Under the pieces are notes generated by a model, which was given only the letters and a program-made list of their open reading frames with translations, did no database searches and had not been told where the DNA came from. From Pseudomonas sp. FP2335 (GTDB lineage: Bacteria; Pseudomonadota; Gammaproteobacteria; Pseudomonadales; Pseudomonadaceae): a DNA stretch of 64,000 nucleotides. Positions 20,228 through 28,394 of the stretch are shown one piece after another. The DNA lies in contig NZ_CP117437.1 in the NCBI RefSeq assembly GCF_030687535.1, forward strand, positions 1,943,501-2,007,500, in the 5' to 3' direction. How positions within the stretch are numbered: position 1 is the first letter of the stretch; each line of letters starts with the position of its first letter. Both the position numbers and the translations under genes were made by a program.

Positions 20228-21448
20228 TTACTTGCCCTGCCAGCGTTTCAGCACCAGGGTGGCGTTAGTGCCACCGAAGCCGAAGCTGTTGCTCATCACG
20301 GTGTCGATCTTGGCGTTTTCAACGGTCTTGAGCTGGATCGGCATATCAGCGACTGCTGGGTCCAGTTCATCGATGTTGGCCGAGCCGGCGATGAAGTTGC
20401 CTTCCATCATCAGCAGGCAGTAGATCGCTTCGTGAACGCCGGCGGCGCCCAGGGAGTGACCCGACAGGCTCTTGGTAGAGCTGATGGCCGGGGCCTTGTC
20501 GCCGAATACCGCACGCACGCCTTCCATTTCCTTGGCGTCGCCGACCGGAGTCGAGGTGCCGTGGGTGTTCAGGTAGTCGATTGGGGTATCCACGGTGGAC
20601 ATTGCCATCTGCATGCAGCGGATGGCGCCTTCACCGCTTGGCGCAACCATGTCGTAGCCGTCGGAAGTGGCGCCGTAGCCGACGATTTCCGCGTAGATCT
20701 TCGCGCCACGGGCCAGAGCGTGTTCCAGCTCCTCGACCACCACCATGCCGCCGCCGCCGGCGATGACGAAACCGTCACGCTTGGCGTCGTAGGCGCGGGA
20801 GGCCTTTTCCGGGGTTTCGTTGTATTGGGTGGACAGTGCGCCCATGGCATCGAACAGGAACGACTGGCTCCAATGCTCTTCTTCACCACCGCCGGCGAAC
20901 ACGATGTCCTGCTTGCCCAACTGGATCTGCTCGACCGCAGTACCGATGCAGTGAGCACTGGTGGCGCAAGCGGAGGAGATCGAGTAGTTCACGCCCTTGA
21001 TGGCAAATGGCGTGGCCAGGCAGGCCGAAACGGTGCTGCCCATGGTCCGTGTGACACGGTACGGGCCAACGCGCTTCACGCCTTTTTCGCGCAGGATGTC
21101 CAGCGCTTCCATCTGGTTCAGGGTCGATGCGCCGCCGGAACCTGCGATCAGGCCGGTGCGTACGTTGGAAACCTGGTCTTCGCTCAGGCCGGAGTCGGCG
21201 ATGGCGTCTTTCATGGCCAGGTAGGCGTAGGCGGCAGCGTGGCCGACGAAGCGATAGATCTTGCGATCGATCAGTTCTTCGAGGGGCAGGTCAATGGAGC
21301 CGGAAACCTGGCTACGCAGACCCATTTCGGCATATTCCGGGTTGAAGCGGATGCCAGGGCGACTTGCACGCAGGTTAGCGGTGACGGTCTCTTTGTCATT
21401 GCCCAGGCAAGAAACGATGCCCAGACCAGTGATAACGACGCGGCGCAT
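20228..21448 (-). CDS. fabB: 3-oxoacyl-ACP synthase I, FabB
   Basis: Condensing enzyme that elongates cis-3-decenoyl-ACP and so commits acyl chains to unsaturation; 406 residues. Cys161 in [10 protein letters not shown] is the acyl-binding nucleophile, with His residues in [11 protein letters not shown] and GHSLGAAG completing the Cys-His-His site. The gene starts 11 bp after fabA, forming the classic fabAB operon. The terminator above closes the operon. Confidence 0.97.
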
Positions 21449-21459
21449 GCGGATAACCC

Positions 21460-21975
21460 TTAAAAGTTGTCAGTGGAAGTGAATACGCCGACCCGAAGGC
21501 CTTCGGCAGTATAGATCTCGCGACCGTCGACGCTCACCGAACCATCGGCGATGGCCAGGTTCAGCTTGCCCTTGAGGACGCGCTTGATTTGAATGTTGTA
21601 GGTGACTTTCTTGGCGGTCGGCAGGACCTGGCCAAAGAACTTCACTTCGCCCGAACCCAGGGCGCGACCGCGGCCCGGCAGACCCTGCCAGCCAAGGAAG
21701 AAGCCGACCAGCTGCCACATGGCGTCGAGGCCCAGGCAGCCTGGCATTACAGGATCGCCTTCGAAATGGCAGGCGAAGAACCACAGGTCCGGGGTGATAT
21801 CCAGCTCGGCGACCAATTCACCTTTGCCGTACTTGCCACCCTCTTCGCTGATATGGGTGATGCGATCCACCATCAGCATGTTCGGGGCGGGCAGTTGCGC
21901 GTTACCTGGGCCGAACAGCTCACCGCGACTGCAGCGCAGCAGGTCTTCCCGGGTAAAGGCGTTTTGTTTGGTCAT
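21460..21975 (-). CDS. fabA: 3-hydroxydecanoyl-ACP dehydratase/isomerase, FabA
   Basis: Bifunctional enzyme that dehydrates 3-hydroxydecanoyl-ACP and isomerises the trans-2 to the cis-3 product, starting unsaturated fatty acid synthesis; 171 residues, the family length. His70 ([14 protein letters not shown]) and Asp84 (GLDAMWQ) are the catalytic pair. GAGGAGCT-type ribosome-binding sequence lies just before the ATG. It is the promoter-proximal gene of fabAB and lies downstream of a palindrome typical of fatty-acid-sensing TetR repressors. Confidence 0.97.
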
Positions 21976-22107
21976 GCGAGCTCCTCAATAATCCCATGCG
22001 GCAGGGTAGGGTAGATCTTCCCGAACCGACTGAAGCATTACGCTTCATACCGGCAGCCTACACATAGACTATTGCGTTGTAGTGAAAGTCACAGCGGCAA
22101 GGCACTG

Positions 22108-22125
22108 AATGTACACTTGTTCACT
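22108..22125. promoter_or_regulatory. DesT/FabR-like operator upstream of fabA
   Basis: On the plus strand the site reads AATGTACACTTGTTCACT, an 18-bp imperfect palindrome (AGTGAACA facing TGTACATT). It closely fits the AGnGTACA-n2-TGTTCnCT type recognised by FabR in enterobacteria and DesT in Pseudomonas, which tune unsaturated fatty acid synthesis. It lies about 135 bp upstream of the fabA start. Assignment rests on motif recall and location only. Confidence 0.6.
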
Positions 22126-22223
22126 GAAATTTTAAACCGGGCCTGTTTATCGGTCCGTTTGGGTGCCTAAGACTGCCGCACTTTCGTCTTTCACGCCAGT
22201 CGGAGTTGGCTGATGGCGCAGCG

Positions 22224-24125
22224 CTATTGCACCCAGCGCTGCAGAATTTGCTGCAAATCCGTGCGTTTGAATGGCTTGGCCAGGTAATCGTTCATTCCGG
22301 CGGCCAGGCACGCTTCGCGGTCGCCCTGCAAGGCGTTGGCGGTCAGGGCGATGATCGGCAGGTCGGCGCAGCCCGGCAGTTGACGGATTTGTCGGGTCGC
22401 CTCGTAGCCGTCGACCAACGGCAGTCGGCAGTCCATCAGGATCGCGGTGAAAATCAGGCTCTCGGCACTGCGGATCGCCTCGGCGCCATCGATGGCCAGG
22501 CTCACTTCAAAGCCCAGGCTGCGCAGCATGGCTTCGACCACGGTGCGGTTGACCGGGTTGTCTTCCACCAGCAGCACATGGCGGCCATCACCGGCACTGT
22601 TTTTACCTTCGCTATCATGGGCAATCTTCGGCAGGTATTGCTGGTCGATGGCCAACGGGATTTCCAGGGTAAACACCGAACCGCGGCCTTCTTCGCTCTG
22701 CGCACGCAAGGTGCCGCCCATGCGTTCGGCCAGGGTGCGGGCGATCGGCAGGCCCAGGCCGGTGCCGCCGTAACGTCTTGAAATGGAACTGTCGGCCTGC
22801 TGGAACGCATCGAACATCAGCTCCAGGCGCTCGGCCGAAATTCCGATGCCGCTGTCGCGCACAGTGCAGGTAAACCACAACAGCTCGTGATCGAGGACCT
22901 GCCACTGGGGCTCGATCGTCACCGTGCCGTGTTCGGTGAATTTCAGTGCGTTGCCGATCAGGTTCACCAGGATCTGCCGGATTCGCGTCGGATCGCCCTG
23001 TACCTGCAGCGCGTCGATCCCCGCCGGAATCGGCAGCTCCAAGGTCAGCCCGCGTTGCTGGGCGCTGTGCTGGAAGGACTGGGCGCAGCTGTTGATCAGG
23101 TCTGCCAGGTTGAACGGAATATGCTCCAGCTCCAGGGCGGCACGTTCGATACGCGAGAAGTCGAGAATATCGTTGATCACCTTGAGCAGATGTTCGGTGG
23201 ATTCGGACGCCAGTGCCGCGTACTCGGTCTGCTCCTCGGTCATCTCGGTTGTTTCCAGCAGCTGCAACATGCCCAGCACGCCGTTCATCGGCGTGCGCAG
23301 CTCATGGCTCATCATTGCCAGGAAATCCGACTTGGCGTTGTTCGCCCGCTCCGCTTCCTCACGGGTCTGGATCAACTGCGCCATGGCCTGGTGCTGTTCG
23401 CGGCTGGCCTGGTTGAGGCCTTCGGCCAGGTTGTTGATATGCCGCGACAGGTCGCCCAATTCCGAGTCATCGACAATCGGCAGCGGCGTTTTGTAGTCGC
23501 CTTGCTGGATTGCCTTGACCGCATTGCCCATGGCGCTGATCGGCTGCGACAGGCTCGCCGCCAGACGGCGTGCCAGCAGAAAGGTGAATAGCAGGGCAAA
23601 CATCGCCAGGATGCCGGCCTTGAGCAGGATTTCCTGCTGGCGCTGGCTGAACGCATCGTTGGACATGCCAACGATCACTCGGCCCAGGTAATCCGCACGC
23701 GGCGCCTTGGGTTCGTTGAGGTTGTCCTGGAAAAAGTCATTGCCCAGTTGGATATGCTGCAAGCGGATCGGTGCCTGGAAGACTTTGACCGACAGCGAGC
23801 GGTCATGTCTTTCCGACGGCTGCTCGACGTACACCAGGATGTTTTCGGCACTGTCCTGGATCTCCAGGAAACGCACGTGGGGTGTGGCCAGTGTCGCGCG
23901 CAACAGGCTTTCCAGCACATCGTTGTTGCCGGAAATCACCCCGTACTCAGTGGCAGGTGCCAACTGGTTGGCGATCAATTGGCCGGTGTGGTCGAGTTCC
24001 TGGCGCAGGTCCTGGATCCGCACGAAGGTAAAGAAACTGATCAACAGCAACGTCAGCAACAGCGCCGGGCCCAGGGTGATGAGTTGGGTGCGGGTGTTGA
24101 TGTCCCAACGACGGCGTAAGGTCAT
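22224..24125 (-). CDS. Hybrid sensor histidine kinase (PA1611-like)
   Basis: 633-residue inner-membrane hybrid kinase. TM1 is about 14-34, then a periplasmic sensor region of about 130 residues (CHASE8-like by layout), TM2 about 169-186, HAMP about 187-240, a HisKA domain with the phospho-accepting His274 in MSHELRTPM, a HATPase with NLIGNALKF and GTGLGLPI, and a C-terminal receiver with phospho-Asp in [11 protein letters not shown]. There is no HPt domain, so phosphate must go to a separate HPt protein. Location next to fabA matches P. aeruginosa PA1611, a RetS/HptB-linked kinase; orthology is inferred. It overlaps the upstream binding-protein gene by 4 bp (ATGA). Confidence 0.9.
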
Positions 24126-25051
24126 GGGCGTTTTTCTCCTGCGGCCAGCCGGGCGGCGACGTCGCGTTCATCGACCTCTTCGAGCCCCAGCGAACGTGCG
24201 ACTTGCGGGTTGCCCGCGACTTTGAAATGTTCCGGGTACAGCGTGCGCGGCCAGGTGGCCGGTGGCTGGTCGAGCAGGCGGTCGAGCACCGCCAGCCAAT
24301 CGGCCTGATCGCTGTAGGTACTGGCCAGGCTGCCAGCGCGGACAAACCCGGCGTTGGGCCCCACCAGCGGCAATTGCCGGGCGTAGCTGCTCAACAGCAG
24401 GTTCTTCACGGTTTTCGGGTTGTACAGCTGCGGGTCATCAAGGCCGAGCAGCACGTCGCTGCTCTTGAACAGGTTTTGCAGCGGGCGACTGTCGTTGGTG
24501 TTGTCCCACAGCTGTGGCACCACCTCCAGGCCCATGGACTTGGCGTACTCGCGCACCTCTTGCAGCAGGAATTCGCTGTCGGCGGCGTAGAGCACGCCGA
24601 TGCGCCGGGCCTGGGGCAGGATGTGGGTGATCAGGCGCAATTGGCGCGCTAGCGGCGGGTCGCTCCAGAGCAGGCTGATCCGGGCCGGAAGGTGGTTGCC
24701 CAGGCGTTGCCGGGCTTGCAGGCGGCTAATGCGCAGCACCAGGGTTGGAGGGCCCAGGCTGTCTTGCAGGCGCCAGTCGAGGCCGGCCAGGTCCAGCAGG
24801 ATCAGGTGCGTGGCGGCAGGCAGGCGGCTCGGCGCGGGCAGGTCCTTGAGCGGGGTGAAGGTCACGCGGTCTTCCGGGCGCTCTTTGGCCAGGGCGTTGA
24901 CGAAGGCCTGCACGCCGGCACCGTCTTCGGCTGCGGTGAGCAGGATGTCGGCACTCCACGCTGGCGTGCTCGGCAACAGGCACACCAGCAGCAGGGCGCG
25001 CCGCCAAAGCCTGAGTATTGAGAGGAGGGTCATCCTTGACTGTGCGCCCAT
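24122..25051 (-). CDS. Periplasmic ABC-type substrate-binding protein (PF04392-like)
   Basis: 309-residue secreted protein. A signal peptide ([18 protein letters not shown]) is followed by a two-lobed type I periplasmic-binding fold: [18 protein letters not shown] at the start and [23 protein letters not shown] in the middle, as in ABC_sub_bind (PF04392) proteins. No ABC permease or ATPase gene is nearby. Instead it sits between a TonB-dependent receptor (2-bp gap) and a hybrid kinase (4-bp overlap), which suggests a sensory role. The first ATG is used; an internal ATG at 25033 is possible. Confidence 0.85.
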
Positions 25052-25052
25052 G

Positions 25053-27173
25053 TCAGAACTCTAACTCGGCGCTGAAGTAGAGCACGTGGCGGTGGTCGTA
25101 ATTGTTGTCGGCCCAGGTGGTGGGCTGGTTATCGAGGCGTTGTTGCAACATGCCGGCCAGCTCCACGTTGGCTTTGCCCAGGGCAATGCGCTTGGCCACC
25201 CGCAGGTCGACCCGTTCGAAGCGATATTGATTGAGTGCGTCGTCGCCATAGTAGAACAGCGCGCTGGACCAACCCTGGCCCCATTCCCGCAGCCAGCCGG
25301 CCGAACCGCTGTTACGCGCGGTCTGGGCTTTGTCCCGGGGGTTGCTGGTGGTGGCGTCGACGTAAGCATAGGTCAGCCGCAGGCGGTCGGCGCTGCTCAT
25401 GCGCCAGTCGAACTGCGACTCGGCACCGGTAAACCGCGAACTGTTGGCGTTGCTGGCGATGTACTGGTTGTTGCGCAGCGGCGAGCTGATCATCTCGGTG
25501 ATCTCGTCGTAGAACAGCTTCACGTCGAGGTTCAGCCCGAGGTCGGCGAAGAAGCCGTTGTAGCCCAGTTCCCGCGAGCGCATCAGCTCTTTGTCGAGGT
25601 TGCCCGGGCCGCGTGTCACCACGAAGTACTGGCCGGAATTCTGCCCGTAGGTCGGCGAACTGAGGTTGGTGACGCGGTAGCTCCAGTTGACGTTGTTTTC
25701 GAACATGTCCGGCGAACGGATCGCCTCGGAGTACACCGCACGCAGGCCGTGGCGCGGGTTGATCAGGTAGTTGACCGCCACCCGTGGCGTCAGCGAGCTG
25801 CCACTGAGGTGGGTGTCTTCGAACATCGCGCCGCCCTGCAACAACCAGTGTTCGCTGGCGCGCCACTCCAACTGGCCGAACAGGCGCCAGGTGGTGTCGT
25901 CCAGGGTGCCGTTGAAGTAGGTGTCGGAGTCGGCGCGGTCGTAGCGATAATTCACACCGCTGACCAGGCGCAGGCTGTCGGACAGGCTCAGGGTGTCCTG
26001 GATCTCCAGGTCGTAGCGGTTTTCACGGGTACTCTGGTTGATGTCGCCGCACACGCTCTGGCTGGCACCGTTGCGCCACTGGTCCAGGACCTGGTTACCC
26101 AGTGCTTGCTCGTCGGCGCCGCCGGGCGGCGCGACACCCTGGCTGTAGCTGTCCATGTGCCGTGCCAGTTGCTCGGCATAATTGGGATTGAGTTGCCACA
26201 GGCGCGTCAGTTCCGGGCTGAACGAGACCTTGGCGTCGCAGGCCTTCCAGATCTGCCGGCGATCCCACTGCTGGGCGGAGCCCTGGATATACAGGCTGTG
26301 CTCGGGATTGAAATCGAAGTTCCAGCGCAGGGAGCCGGCGTAGTCCTTGGCGGTGACGTCCGAATTGTCGCCACCTTCGGTAATCCCCGCGAAGACCGGC
26401 ATGTAGGTGTAGGGCCGCTGGTTGGTCCCTTCCTTGGCATTCAGCTGCCAGTCGATGCTTTGTTGCGCGTTCAACGTCTGGCTCACGGCCAGGCTGAAGC
26501 GGTTGAGACGGCGACTGTCACGGCGGTCGGCGCCGGCGGCATCGCTGTCAAAGCCGTCGTCCTGTTGCCCCGACAGCGACAGGCGCAAGTCGCCAGTGTC
26601 CCAGCGCACGCCCTGGCTGGCGTAGAAGTCGTTGATCCCGCGTTCGCCACGGATGACCTTGACCCGCGTGCCCTGGCTGTTGGCCGGCGAGCGAGTGAGG
26701 ATATTGACTACCGCCATCAGCGCGTTGGCGCCGTAACTCACGGTATTGGGGCCGCGGAATACTTCGATGCGCTCGATGTCTTCCATGGCCACTGGAATGT
26801 CGCTCCAGTCCACGGTCGCCAGGCCCGCGCGGTACACCGAGCGTCCGTCGATCAACACCTGCATGCGTCGCGCATCGCTGGCGCTGGTGCCGTGGTAGTT
26901 CACCGCCGCCTGGTTGCCGGTGGTGTAGCCGACCATCATCCCCGGCACCAGGCGCAGCAGCTCGCTGATGTCCCGCGCGCCGCTGGCCTTGATCAACTCG
27001 CTGTCGATCACGGTCATGCTGCCCGGCACGGCCGCCGCCGATTGCTTCAGGCGCGTCGCGGTCAGGACCTGCGGCAACGGCTGGTTGTCGAGGAACAGAT
27101 CGTCGGCCATGGCCGCGCCGCTGCACAGCAGCAGCCACAACACTGATGAACGGGGAGGAGGGCCCAAATACAC
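25053..27173 (-). CDS. TonB-dependent outer-membrane receptor
   Basis: 706-residue outer-membrane receptor. A signal peptide precedes ADDLFL, LPQVLTATR is a plausible TonB box, the plug domain follows (PGSMTVIDSELI to VVNILTRSP), and the barrel ends in AELEF with the terminal Phe required for assembly. There is no N-terminal secretin/STN signalling domain, so it is a plain transducer of substrate, not a FecA-type one. Two Cys residues in predicted loops (WKACDAKV, SVCGDINQS) may form a disulfide. It starts with GTG; AAGG lies 7 nt upstream. It is first of a three-gene operon; no Fur box was recognised. The ligand is unknown. Confidence 0.88.
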   Translation of the reverse strand: MYLGPPPRSSVLWLLLCSGAAMADDLFLDNQPLPQVLTATRLKQSAAAVPGSMTVIDSELIKASGARDISELLRLVPGMMVGYTTGNQAAVNYHGTSASDARRMQVLIDGRSVYRAGLATVDWSDIPVAMEDIERIEVFRGPNTVSYGANALMAVVNILTRSPANSQGTRVKVIRGERGINDFYASQGVRWDTGDLRLSLSGQQDDGFDSDAAGADRRDSRRLNRFSLAVSQTLNAQQSIDWQLNAKEGTNQRPYTYMPVFAGITEGGDNSDVTAKDYAGSLRWNFDFNPEHSLYIQGSAQQWDRRQIWKACDAKVSFSPELTRLWQLNPNYAEQLARHMDSYSQGVAPPGGADEQALGNQVLDQWRNGASQSVCGDINQSTRENRYDLEIQDTLSLSDSLRLVSGVNYRYDRADSDTYFNGTLDDTTWRLFGQLEWRASEHWLLQGGAMFEDTHLSGSSLTPRVAVNYLINPRHGLRAVYSEAIRSPDMFENNVNWSYRVTNLSSPTYGQNSGQYFVVTRGPGNLDKELMRSRELGYNGFFADLGLNLDVKLFYDEITEMISSPLRNNQYIASNANSSRFTGAESQFDWRMSSADRLRLTYAYVDATTSNPRDKAQTARNSGSAGWLREWGQGWSSALFYYGDDALNQYRFERVDLRVAKRIALGKANVELAGMLQQRLDNQPTTWADNNYDHRHVLYFSAELEF

Positions 27174-27325
27174 GGAACGGCCTTGATAATGACGGATAGC
27201 CGCCCATGTTAACTGAGGTCGGGCCTTTTGCCAGTCGTAGGACTTGCAATTACTTCACACGGGTGTGGCATTTTCCGACATGTGAACGAATTGACACGGG
27301 GGCTGGCCGCAAGCGGGTCGCCCCG

Positions 27326-27331
27326 TATAAT
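27326..27331 (+). promoter_or_regulatory. Candidate -10 element of gpsA
   Basis: A perfect TATAAT lies about 38 bp before the gpsA start. The TTGACA at 27291-27296 is 29 bp away, too far to be its partner, so the promoter would have a poor -35 or need an activator. Confidence 0.5.
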
Positions 27332-27368
27332 GCGGCCATCGCCATTGGTATGGATTAACGGATTGCAT

Positions 27369-28394
27369 ATGACTGAACAGCGCCCTATTGCGGTCCTTGG
27401 AGGCGGAAGTTTTGGCACCGCCGTGGCTAACCTGCTGGCGGAGAACGGCCACGTGGTACGCCAGTGGATGCGTGATCCCGAGCAGGCCGAAGCCATCCGG
27501 GTGCACCGCGAAAATCCCCGTTACCTTAAAGGCATCAAGATCCACCCGGCGGTCGAGCCGGTGACGGACTTGCTGGCGACACTGACGGACTGCGACCTGT
27601 GCTTCGTCGCGCTGCCGTCCAGCGCGTTGCGCACGGTACTGGCGCCCCACGCCGAGCGCCTGGCGGGCAAGCTGCTGGTCAGCCTGACCAAGGGCATCGA
27701 GGCGCAGACCTTCATGCTGATGAGCGAAATCCTCGCCGAGATCGCTCCCCAGGCGCGTATTGGCGTGCTGTCCGGGCCGAACCTGGCGCGGGAAGTCGCC
27801 GAACACGCGCTGACCGCCACGGTCATCGCCAGTGAAGACGAAGAGCTGTGCGAGCGCGTGCAGGCGGTGTTGCACGGGCGTACCTTCCGCGTCTACGCCA
27901 GTGGCGACCGGTTTGGCGTCGAGTTGGGCGGTGCGTTGAAAAACGTCTACGCGATCATCGCCGGCATGGCGGTGGCGCTGGGCATGGGCGAAAACACCAA
28001 GAGCATGCTGATCACCCGCGCCCTGGCCGAGATGACCCGCTTTGCGGTCAACCAGGGCGCCAACCCGATGACCTTTCTCGGGCTGGCGGGCGTGGGCGAC
28101 TTGATCGTCACCTGCTCGTCGCCGAAAAGCCGCAACTACCAAGTCGGTTTCGCCCTGGGCCAGGGCTTGAGCCTGGAAGACGCGGTGACGCGCCTGGGTG
28201 AAGTGGCCGAAGGCGTCAACACCCTCAAGGTCCTCAAGGCCAAGGCCCAGGAAGTCGGGGTGTACATGCCGTTGGTTGCCGGGTTGCATGCGATCCTGTT
28301 TGAAGGGCGCACCTTGAACCAGGTGATCGAGTTGTTGATGCGCGCCGAACCGAAAACCGATGTCGACTTTATTTCCACCAGTGGTTTCAACTGA
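27369..28394 (+). CDS. gpsA: Glycerol-3-phosphate dehydrogenase [NAD(P)+], GpsA
   Basis: Reduces dihydroxyacetone phosphate to sn-glycerol 3-phosphate for phospholipid synthesis; 341 residues, cytoplasmic. [12 protein letters not shown] near the N-terminus is the dinucleotide-binding motif and [14 protein letters not shown] carries the catalytic Lys. The frame opens upstream at 27228, but the ATG at 27369 gives the family start [13 protein letters not shown]. It heads a small co-directional block with a DUF4389 gene and sixA. Confidence 0.96.

Follow-up and report, generated by a model that had tools for sequence, protein, structure and literature searches.

This analysis concerns three adjacent genes in a 64,000-nucleotide stretch of DNA from Pseudomonas sp. 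FP2335 (contig NZ_CP117437.1, positions 1,943,501 to 2,007,500), which is referred to as the window. All three are encoded on the minus strand between fabA (21460..21975, minus strand), the downstream neighbor of the trio, and gpsA, which lies upstream and is divergent. From gpsA toward fabA the genes encode a TonB-dependent receptor (25053..27173, 706 amino acids, GTG start), a periplasmic substrate-binding protein of the PF04392/TrpX-like type (24122..25051, 309 amino acids), and a hybrid histidine kinase without an HPt domain (22224..24125, 633 amino acids). They occupy the same fabA-side position as PA1613-PA1612-PA1611 of P. aeruginosa, and the correspondence to these genes is by position; PA1613 is presumably also a TonB receptor. 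An earlier note on this DNA had described the genes as tightly packed, and the 4 base pair overlap between the binding protein and kinase genes (24122-24125) was confirmed while the gap between the receptor and binding protein genes is 1 base pair (25052) rather than 2. A consensus scan of 21400-27500 found no sigma-70-like promoter and no minus-strand terminator, so nothing was seen that divides the trio, including the internal promoter that the note had considered. A Fur box was not found in the window in a search allowing up to 3 mismatches. A chance arrangement is excluded because the same order is found at the same place in most genomes of the genus.

The domain content of the three proteins is as the earlier note had read it. 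The receptor matches the Pfam plug (85.7 bits) and barrel (94.7 bits), the only two domains above the Pfam cut-off, and an N-terminal signaling (STN) domain was not matched. The binding protein has a partial match to PF04392 (33.6 bits against a cut-off of 25.9, residues 133-249 only). The 6.06 Mb genome contains no second PF04392 match at E up to 0.001, and the fabA-gpsA interval showed no ATP-binding cassette (ABC) permease or ATPase gene. Its AlphaFold model has a mean predicted local distance difference test score (pLDDT) of 77.5; the best Foldseek match is the Trp-bound structure 3lft, which like related binding proteins is matched at a template modeling (TM) score of ~0.5, and LuxP is a weak fold match. 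The bound Trp is a weak hint of an aromatic amino acid as ligand. Among named relatives, the binding protein is closest to one from Pseudomonas sp. PDM05 (99% identity), and only Pseudomonas occurs among the best 80 of 377 related loci. The kinase contains sCache_4, HAMP, HisKA, HATPase, and REC domains, and no Hpt (PF01627) match was found in a Pfam search up to E 0.1. Its periplasmic sensor comprises residues 34-165 (23631..24026, minus strand), of which residues 36-101 match sCache_4 (PF09984, 29.1 bits, cut-off 22.1), the sensor family of BarA and GacS. The HisKA domain (23145..23336, minus strand) carries the phospho-acceptor H274 and the receiver domain (22242..22577, minus strand) the phospho-acceptor D565. 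An alignment of kinases from the fabA-gpsA position brought out a sensor loop motif, L127-G-N-D130-F131 (23733..23747, minus strand), which is a candidate docking element for the binding protein.

We consider it probable (roughly 0.7) that the trio encodes a trans-envelope sensing relay in which the binding protein docks on the kinase sensor, and that this is an old unit whose partners have been lost in several Pseudomonas lineages. The distribution of the genes was determined in 149 Pseudomonas genomes, FP2335 included, with the kinase counted at E <= 1e-100 and the receptor at E <= 1e-60. The kinase is present in 148 genomes, the binding protein in 109, and the receptor in 99. Binding protein matches were initially found in 111 genomes, and two weak ones were dropped, a locus remnant (G060) and a match on a contig other than that of the kinase (G123). 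The three sets are strictly nested: all receptor genomes are within the 109, and all 109 have the kinase (99 < 109 < 148). Within the genus, the fabA-gpsA interval most often contains the full trio. A kinase without a substantial binding protein match occurs in 39 of the 148 genomes, and in all 37 of the kinase-bearing genomes without a match that were fetched the kinase sits between fabA and gpsA. The independent occurrence of the genes that the earlier note had weighed against a functional trio is therefore seen for the kinase, but the pattern is strictly nested and not random. Only one genome (G041) is without a kinase of the fabA-gpsA type at the threshold used. In another genome (G090) copies of the locus with equal scores are found on three contigs (L181-L183), which is probably an assembly artefact.

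Several loci appear to be in decay. Among the 109 genomes with the binding protein, one has a gene with an internal stop (G001) and one a gene split between frames (G052). The G001 locus (L034), with its single internal stop, has no receptor beside the binding protein gene and represents another stage of decay. Receptor remnants of 95-103 amino acids are located beside binding protein genes at L051, L276, and L278, and a 137-residue remnant of the binding protein is found at L045, where there is no receptor. A neutral tree was built from fabB, fabA, and gpsA with 66 rows, after 7 with missing or short neighbors had been set aside; it requires a minimum of 8 changes of state for the receptor and 7 for the binding protein. 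The neutral tree alone cannot separate gain from loss, and loss is favored over gain because of the gene remnants and the gene order at the class level. The sequence comparisons favor partners that were recurrently lost rather than added in Pseudomonas, with the receptor lost first in several lineages. The earlier note had taken the trio for an accessory addition between fabA and gpsA; an accessory insertion in one lineage was rejected on the genus-wide presence, the nested pattern, and the repeated changes on the tree.

Loss of the binding protein is accompanied by changes in the kinase sensor. An alignment was made of 81 fabA-gpsA kinases, 43 with a binding protein gene and 38 without an intact one. 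These are a chosen subset (L032-L090, L186-L200, every tenth of L121-L185, L276-L279, and the window), from which the kinase-only locus L072 was dropped for its broken kinase frame. The remnant row L045 is counted apart from the other 37 in the tally of D130-F131 and is elsewhere placed among the kinases that have no intact partner (38 in all, 35 of them on the tree). With kinase-core distance matched, the divergence of the sensor is 1.4-1.8 times higher without the binding protein, and the terminal sensor/core ratio on a fixed tree is 1.15 for the 24 rows with the partner versus 4.37 for the 35 rows without it (p 9e-5). Five positions that are at least 95% conserved with the partner fall below 60% without it (I64, L127, D130, F131, and F176), and none of the partner-dependent positions is in the kinase core or the receiver. 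D130-F131 is found in 42/43 kinases with the partner versus 2/37 without it, where three more have D followed by another bulky residue; the L045 kinase, beside its binding protein remnant, keeps D-F. The sensor loop, residues 119-146 of the window kinase, is 28-29 residues long with the partner and 13-33 without it. There is no sign of catalytic decay in the partnerless kinases, as H274, E275, N392, D565, T595, and K617 are intact in 38/38. A Pagel test of D-F against the binding protein gave p 1e-7. Because the sensor diverges and loses D130-F131 where the binding protein is lost, these results suggest that the binding protein contacts the kinase sensor.

The same changes could arise if the kinase senses the ligand directly in an sCache_4 pocket. 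The receptor and binding protein would then do no more than enrich the ligand in the periplasm, and the motif would change when the ligand is absent. Domains of the sCache type often bind small ligands. Additionally, a paper on the GacS detector domain proposes a putative pocket built largely from the major loop, which fits direct sensing. Against this, D-F is kept in 9/10 rows that have the binding protein and have lost only the receptor (and in 14/14 with the receptor), which ties the motif to the binding protein and not to import across the outer membrane. The conserved sensor positions are also mostly kept without the binding protein, with only 4/60 falling below 60%. We therefore regard direct sensing as unlikely, though it is the most credible of the alternatives to docking of the binding protein.

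The relay arrangement extends well beyond Pseudomonas. A profile search for the binding protein in 369 genomes of Gammaproteobacteria (E up to 1e-10) found 75 places in 70 genomes. The class-level set consists of 74 binding protein loci outside the FP2335 genome, all annotated, with neighbors assigned by an automatic rule. A TonB receptor open reading frame (ORF) is directly upstream in 54/74 loci, and in 6 more the contig ends on the upstream side. Directly downstream, 63/74 loci encode a kinase, cyclase, or sensor-domain protein (58 kinases, 3 GGDEF proteins, and 2 with a sensor only), and one further output protein, at L208, was missed by the rule because of its ORF start. The sCache_4 domain was found by Pfam at 98 places in 88/369 genomes; 55 of these 98 are directly after a binding protein, and 55 of the 75 binding protein places are directly followed by sCache_4. 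Of the remaining 43 sCache_4 places 40 were fetched, and with a wider profile a binding protein-like gene was found in the locus at 13 of them. The three GGDEF outputs (L209, L219, and L240) have the same kind of sensor.

These loci bear on the possibility that the trio is a nutrient uptake operon, in which the receptor and binding protein feed an ABC permease whose gene lies elsewhere, with the kinase as a mere neighbor or an indirect reporter of the nutrient. PF04392 proteins are normally parts of ABC importers, and the check for a permease covered the fabA-gpsA interval. An ABC-ATPase-like ORF was found in only 4/74 class-level loci (by motif search, not Pfam), against the sensor kinase or cyclase downstream in 63/74, and the evolution of the kinase sensor tracks the binding protein. 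An uptake operon was rejected as the leading explanation on these counts and is improbable. It is less probable still that the trio is held together by readthrough transcription into fabAB with no functional coupling. The accessible parts of one study do report readthrough from PA1612-PA1611 into fabA in P. aeruginosa and state that the genes may be co-transcribed (PMC3462791). However, trios of the same order also occur apart from fabA, close to rlmD and on a plasmid, and the nested losses and the change of the sensor with partner loss are also contrary to simple hitchhiking, which we consider very improbable. The proposal of the earlier note that the trio is one sensing unit is upheld by the single gene order in most class-level loci, the nested losses, and the change in the sensor where the binding protein is lost.

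The loop motif is associated with the binding protein at the class level as well. In its strict form it is found in 30/58 trio kinases versus 1/26 kinases without a binding protein (p 1.5e-5, kinship ignored), with L300 as the exception, and near rlmD in 16/27 versus 0/13, the 13 including FP2335 GacS and E. coli BarA. By eye, the motif is present in two of the three cyclase-type outputs (VTVDDF at L209 and LPVDDY at L240) and absent from the third (L219) and from another non-kinase output (L253). Receptor and binding protein distances are correlated after control for rlmD (partial r 0.85, 22 rlmD-linked loci). Named examples were sought in plasmid records only, where four matched and two were examined. 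A plasmid of Massilia sp. H6 (NZ_CP103372.1; L322 3402-8088), typed as mobilizable, has all three genes of a receptor-binding protein-kinase trio in a stretch flanked by partition and conjugation genes; a response regulator is encoded upstream of the trio. The module can evidently travel. The sensor of this trio carries the motif (ALPVDDF), and its kinase core is presumably of a different type. A plasmid of Teredinibacter purpureus encodes a binding protein-kinase pair, with no receptor in the stretch examined, and VVPDFDE in the kinase sensor was recognized by eye as the motif. Neither plasmid sequence was used to define the motif. A second, more distant group of binding proteins is found before sCache_4-type kinases (~540-680 amino acids) or larger hybrids (L301, L302, L306, L311, L319, and others); the strict motif was not matched in this group, which may dock differently. 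At two further loci, from two genomes of another family (f130; L239 and L260), a receptor and binding protein lie upstream of fabA-fabB with no kinase found, and the gene in the kinase slot is one we take to be TsaA/TrmO-like. The link to fabA may predate Pseudomonas.

Part of the class-level set is linked to rlmD. The rlmD-relA pair of E. coli K-12 has barA as its divergent neighbor, and in 28/74 of the class-level loci rlmD is upstream on the opposite strand within ~8.5 kb. All three genes are present in 22 of these 28 loci and the kinase is directly downstream of the binding protein in 27, and 23 of the 28 genomes have no sCache_4 place other than the linked kinase. Of 22 class genomes selected because they contain the locus, 21 have the linked kinase as their best match to the NCBIfam BarA equivalog model (exception G493). 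None of the 22 reaches the strict cut-off of this model (890 bits), nor does the best match of FP2335 itself, a GacS-like protein (837 bits); the window kinase scores 450.5 bits. A domain scan of 40 of the 63 class-level output proteins found HPt in 34/40 and sCache_4 in 35/40. On a kinase tree of 109 rows, made by a quick method and containing several long branches, E. coli BarA and FP2335 GacS fall in a group of 25 rows made up of 11 trio kinases and 14 kinases without a binding protein (Shimodaira-Hasegawa-like approximate likelihood ratio test, SH-aLRT, 92). The Pseudomonas fabA-gpsA kinases, including that of the window, form one clade (SH-aLRT 100) elsewhere in the family. This separate clade makes the window kinase a relative of BarA/GacS and not an orthologue, and its gene is in the fabA-gpsA position instead of beside rlmD or relA. 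Neither a receptor nor a binding protein is located beside the E. coli BarA or FP2335 GacS genes. The latter is divergent, at L283 4592-6704, from a two-component pair consisting of a kinase and a regulator, which by synteny presumably resembles PirRS.

From these arrangements we tentatively propose, at somewhat short of even odds, that BarA/GacS-type kinases were ancestrally the third part of a receptor-binding protein-kinase relay in which the loaded binding protein signals to the sensor loop. E. coli BarA and Pseudomonas GacS would then be derived orphans that have neither the partners nor the docking motif, and in Pseudomonas a related relay would survive at PA1613-PA1612-PA1611, reporting to Gac via RetS/HptB.

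In the proposed mechanism, the TonB receptor would bring a scarce ligand into the periplasm, where the binding protein, judging from its fold and family, would capture it. The binding protein, loaded or empty, would then dock on the sCache_4 sensor through the long loop with its L-x-x-D-F motif, as the pattern of loss suggests. The HPt-less kinase may report by way of RetS, or of an HPt on another protein, to the Gac/Rsm network; in the available parts of the literature, PA1611 of P. aeruginosa is reported to act on RetS/GacS and HptB, and PA1613 was analyzed among iron-acquisition proteins. The unit would be old, as in many Gammaproteobacteria a similar receptor-binding protein pair is encoded ahead of a BarA/GacS-type kinase, and the Pseudomonas fabA-gpsA copy would be a divergent, HPt-less member of the wider family.

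A number of observations weigh against this interpretation. The REC/core control ratio also shifts slightly (1.01 versus 1.25, p 0.04). Only 4-5 supported independent pairs (7 on all branches) are available, none of them opposite in direction, and the independent-pair test gave p 0.06-0.5 for D-F and up to 1 for a looser motif; a tree from the kinase core only gives still fewer pairs and is underpowered. The strict motif expression matches only 30 of the 58 class-level trio kinases, and across 22 loci with rlmD controlled the correlation of the binding protein is stronger for the kinase core (partial r 0.64) than for the sensor (0.48). In 14/74 class-level loci a receptor was not found although no contig end truncates the upstream side, and a receptor and binding protein with no kinase found occur at L239, L260, L264, and L269. 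At L300 an sCache_4 hybrid kinase that has the loop motif is immediately preceded by a receptor, and a binding protein gene was not found between the two; the genome carries another binding protein elsewhere (L256). The structure model of the kinase is poor (pLDDT 46.9) and was left unused. PA1611 is reported, in sources available in part, to be expressed at a very low level and to interact with RetS independently of its phosphorelay residues. The last step may for these two reasons be sequestration and not phosphotransfer.

The GacS/BarA family of kinases controls secretion, biofilm formation, and secondary metabolism across Gammaproteobacteria, and to our knowledge the signal of GacS/BarA remains an open and debated question. 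If many kinases of the family receive their signal through a receptor and binding protein of their own, the ligand could be sought with a soluble binding protein and not a membrane kinase. The orphan GacS and BarA would, if the proposal is true, be cases of loss in which the absent contact is predicted. In Pseudomonas, the recurrent loss of partners amounts to a natural mutagenesis series that names two residues, D130 and F131, and the same relay is often in front of the BarA/GacS-related master-switch kinases of other bacteria.

The trio can be compared with several known systems. The binding protein of an ABC importer is accompanied by a permease and ATPase, neither of which was seen in the fabA-gpsA interval of the window. 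The window kinase shares the fabA-gpsA position and the HPt-less hybrid architecture of PA1611-type kinases and forms one clade with its orthologues in the genus. With BarA/GacS it shares the order sCache_4-HAMP-HisKA-HATPase-REC and differs in having no C-terminal HPt domain. The use of a periplasmic binding protein as the co-receptor of a membrane signaling enzyme presumably resembles LuxP-LuxQ, TorT-TorS, and NspS-MbaA, and we know of no dedicated TonB receptor in these modules. In FecA-FecR-FecI a TonB receptor starts a trans-envelope signal; in contrast, the receptor of the window has no match to an N-terminal signaling domain, and the proposed route here is from a soluble binding protein to a kinase and not to an anti-sigma factor. 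The earlier note had placed PA1611 beside fabA without these partners, whereas the parts of the study available describe a PA1612-PA1611 operon upstream of fabA and name PA1613 beyond it (PMC3462791). PA1611 has also been called structurally related to GacS in a source available in part (PMC4866733).

In the open-licence literature, with subscription papers and preprints outside the search, BarA, GacS, or PA1611 was not found tied to a TonB receptor and binding protein as one sensing unit; an apparent link between BarA and VpvB was a false match to VpVbrR. The closest known system, matched by gene order and description, is VpvABC of Vibrio cholerae. It consists of an outer-membrane protein, a periplasmic binding protein, and a membrane signaling enzyme for which import, capture, and sensing are proposed, and vpvAB is suggested to be a conserved sensing unit that was later linked to vpvC (PMC12456836). 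The concept of the relay is therefore not new, as VpvABC has been described as a three-component module. The parts of that paper available contain no mention of BarA, GacS, or PA1611. The attachment of such a relay to PA1611 and BarA/GacS-type kinases and the partner-dependent loop motif were not found in the open-licence literature. The window and VpvABC have the same order of an outer-membrane receptor, a periplasmic binding protein, and a membrane signaling protein, and they differ in their output, which is a diguanylate cyclase in VpvABC and an HPt-less hybrid histidine kinase with an sCache_4 sensor in the window.

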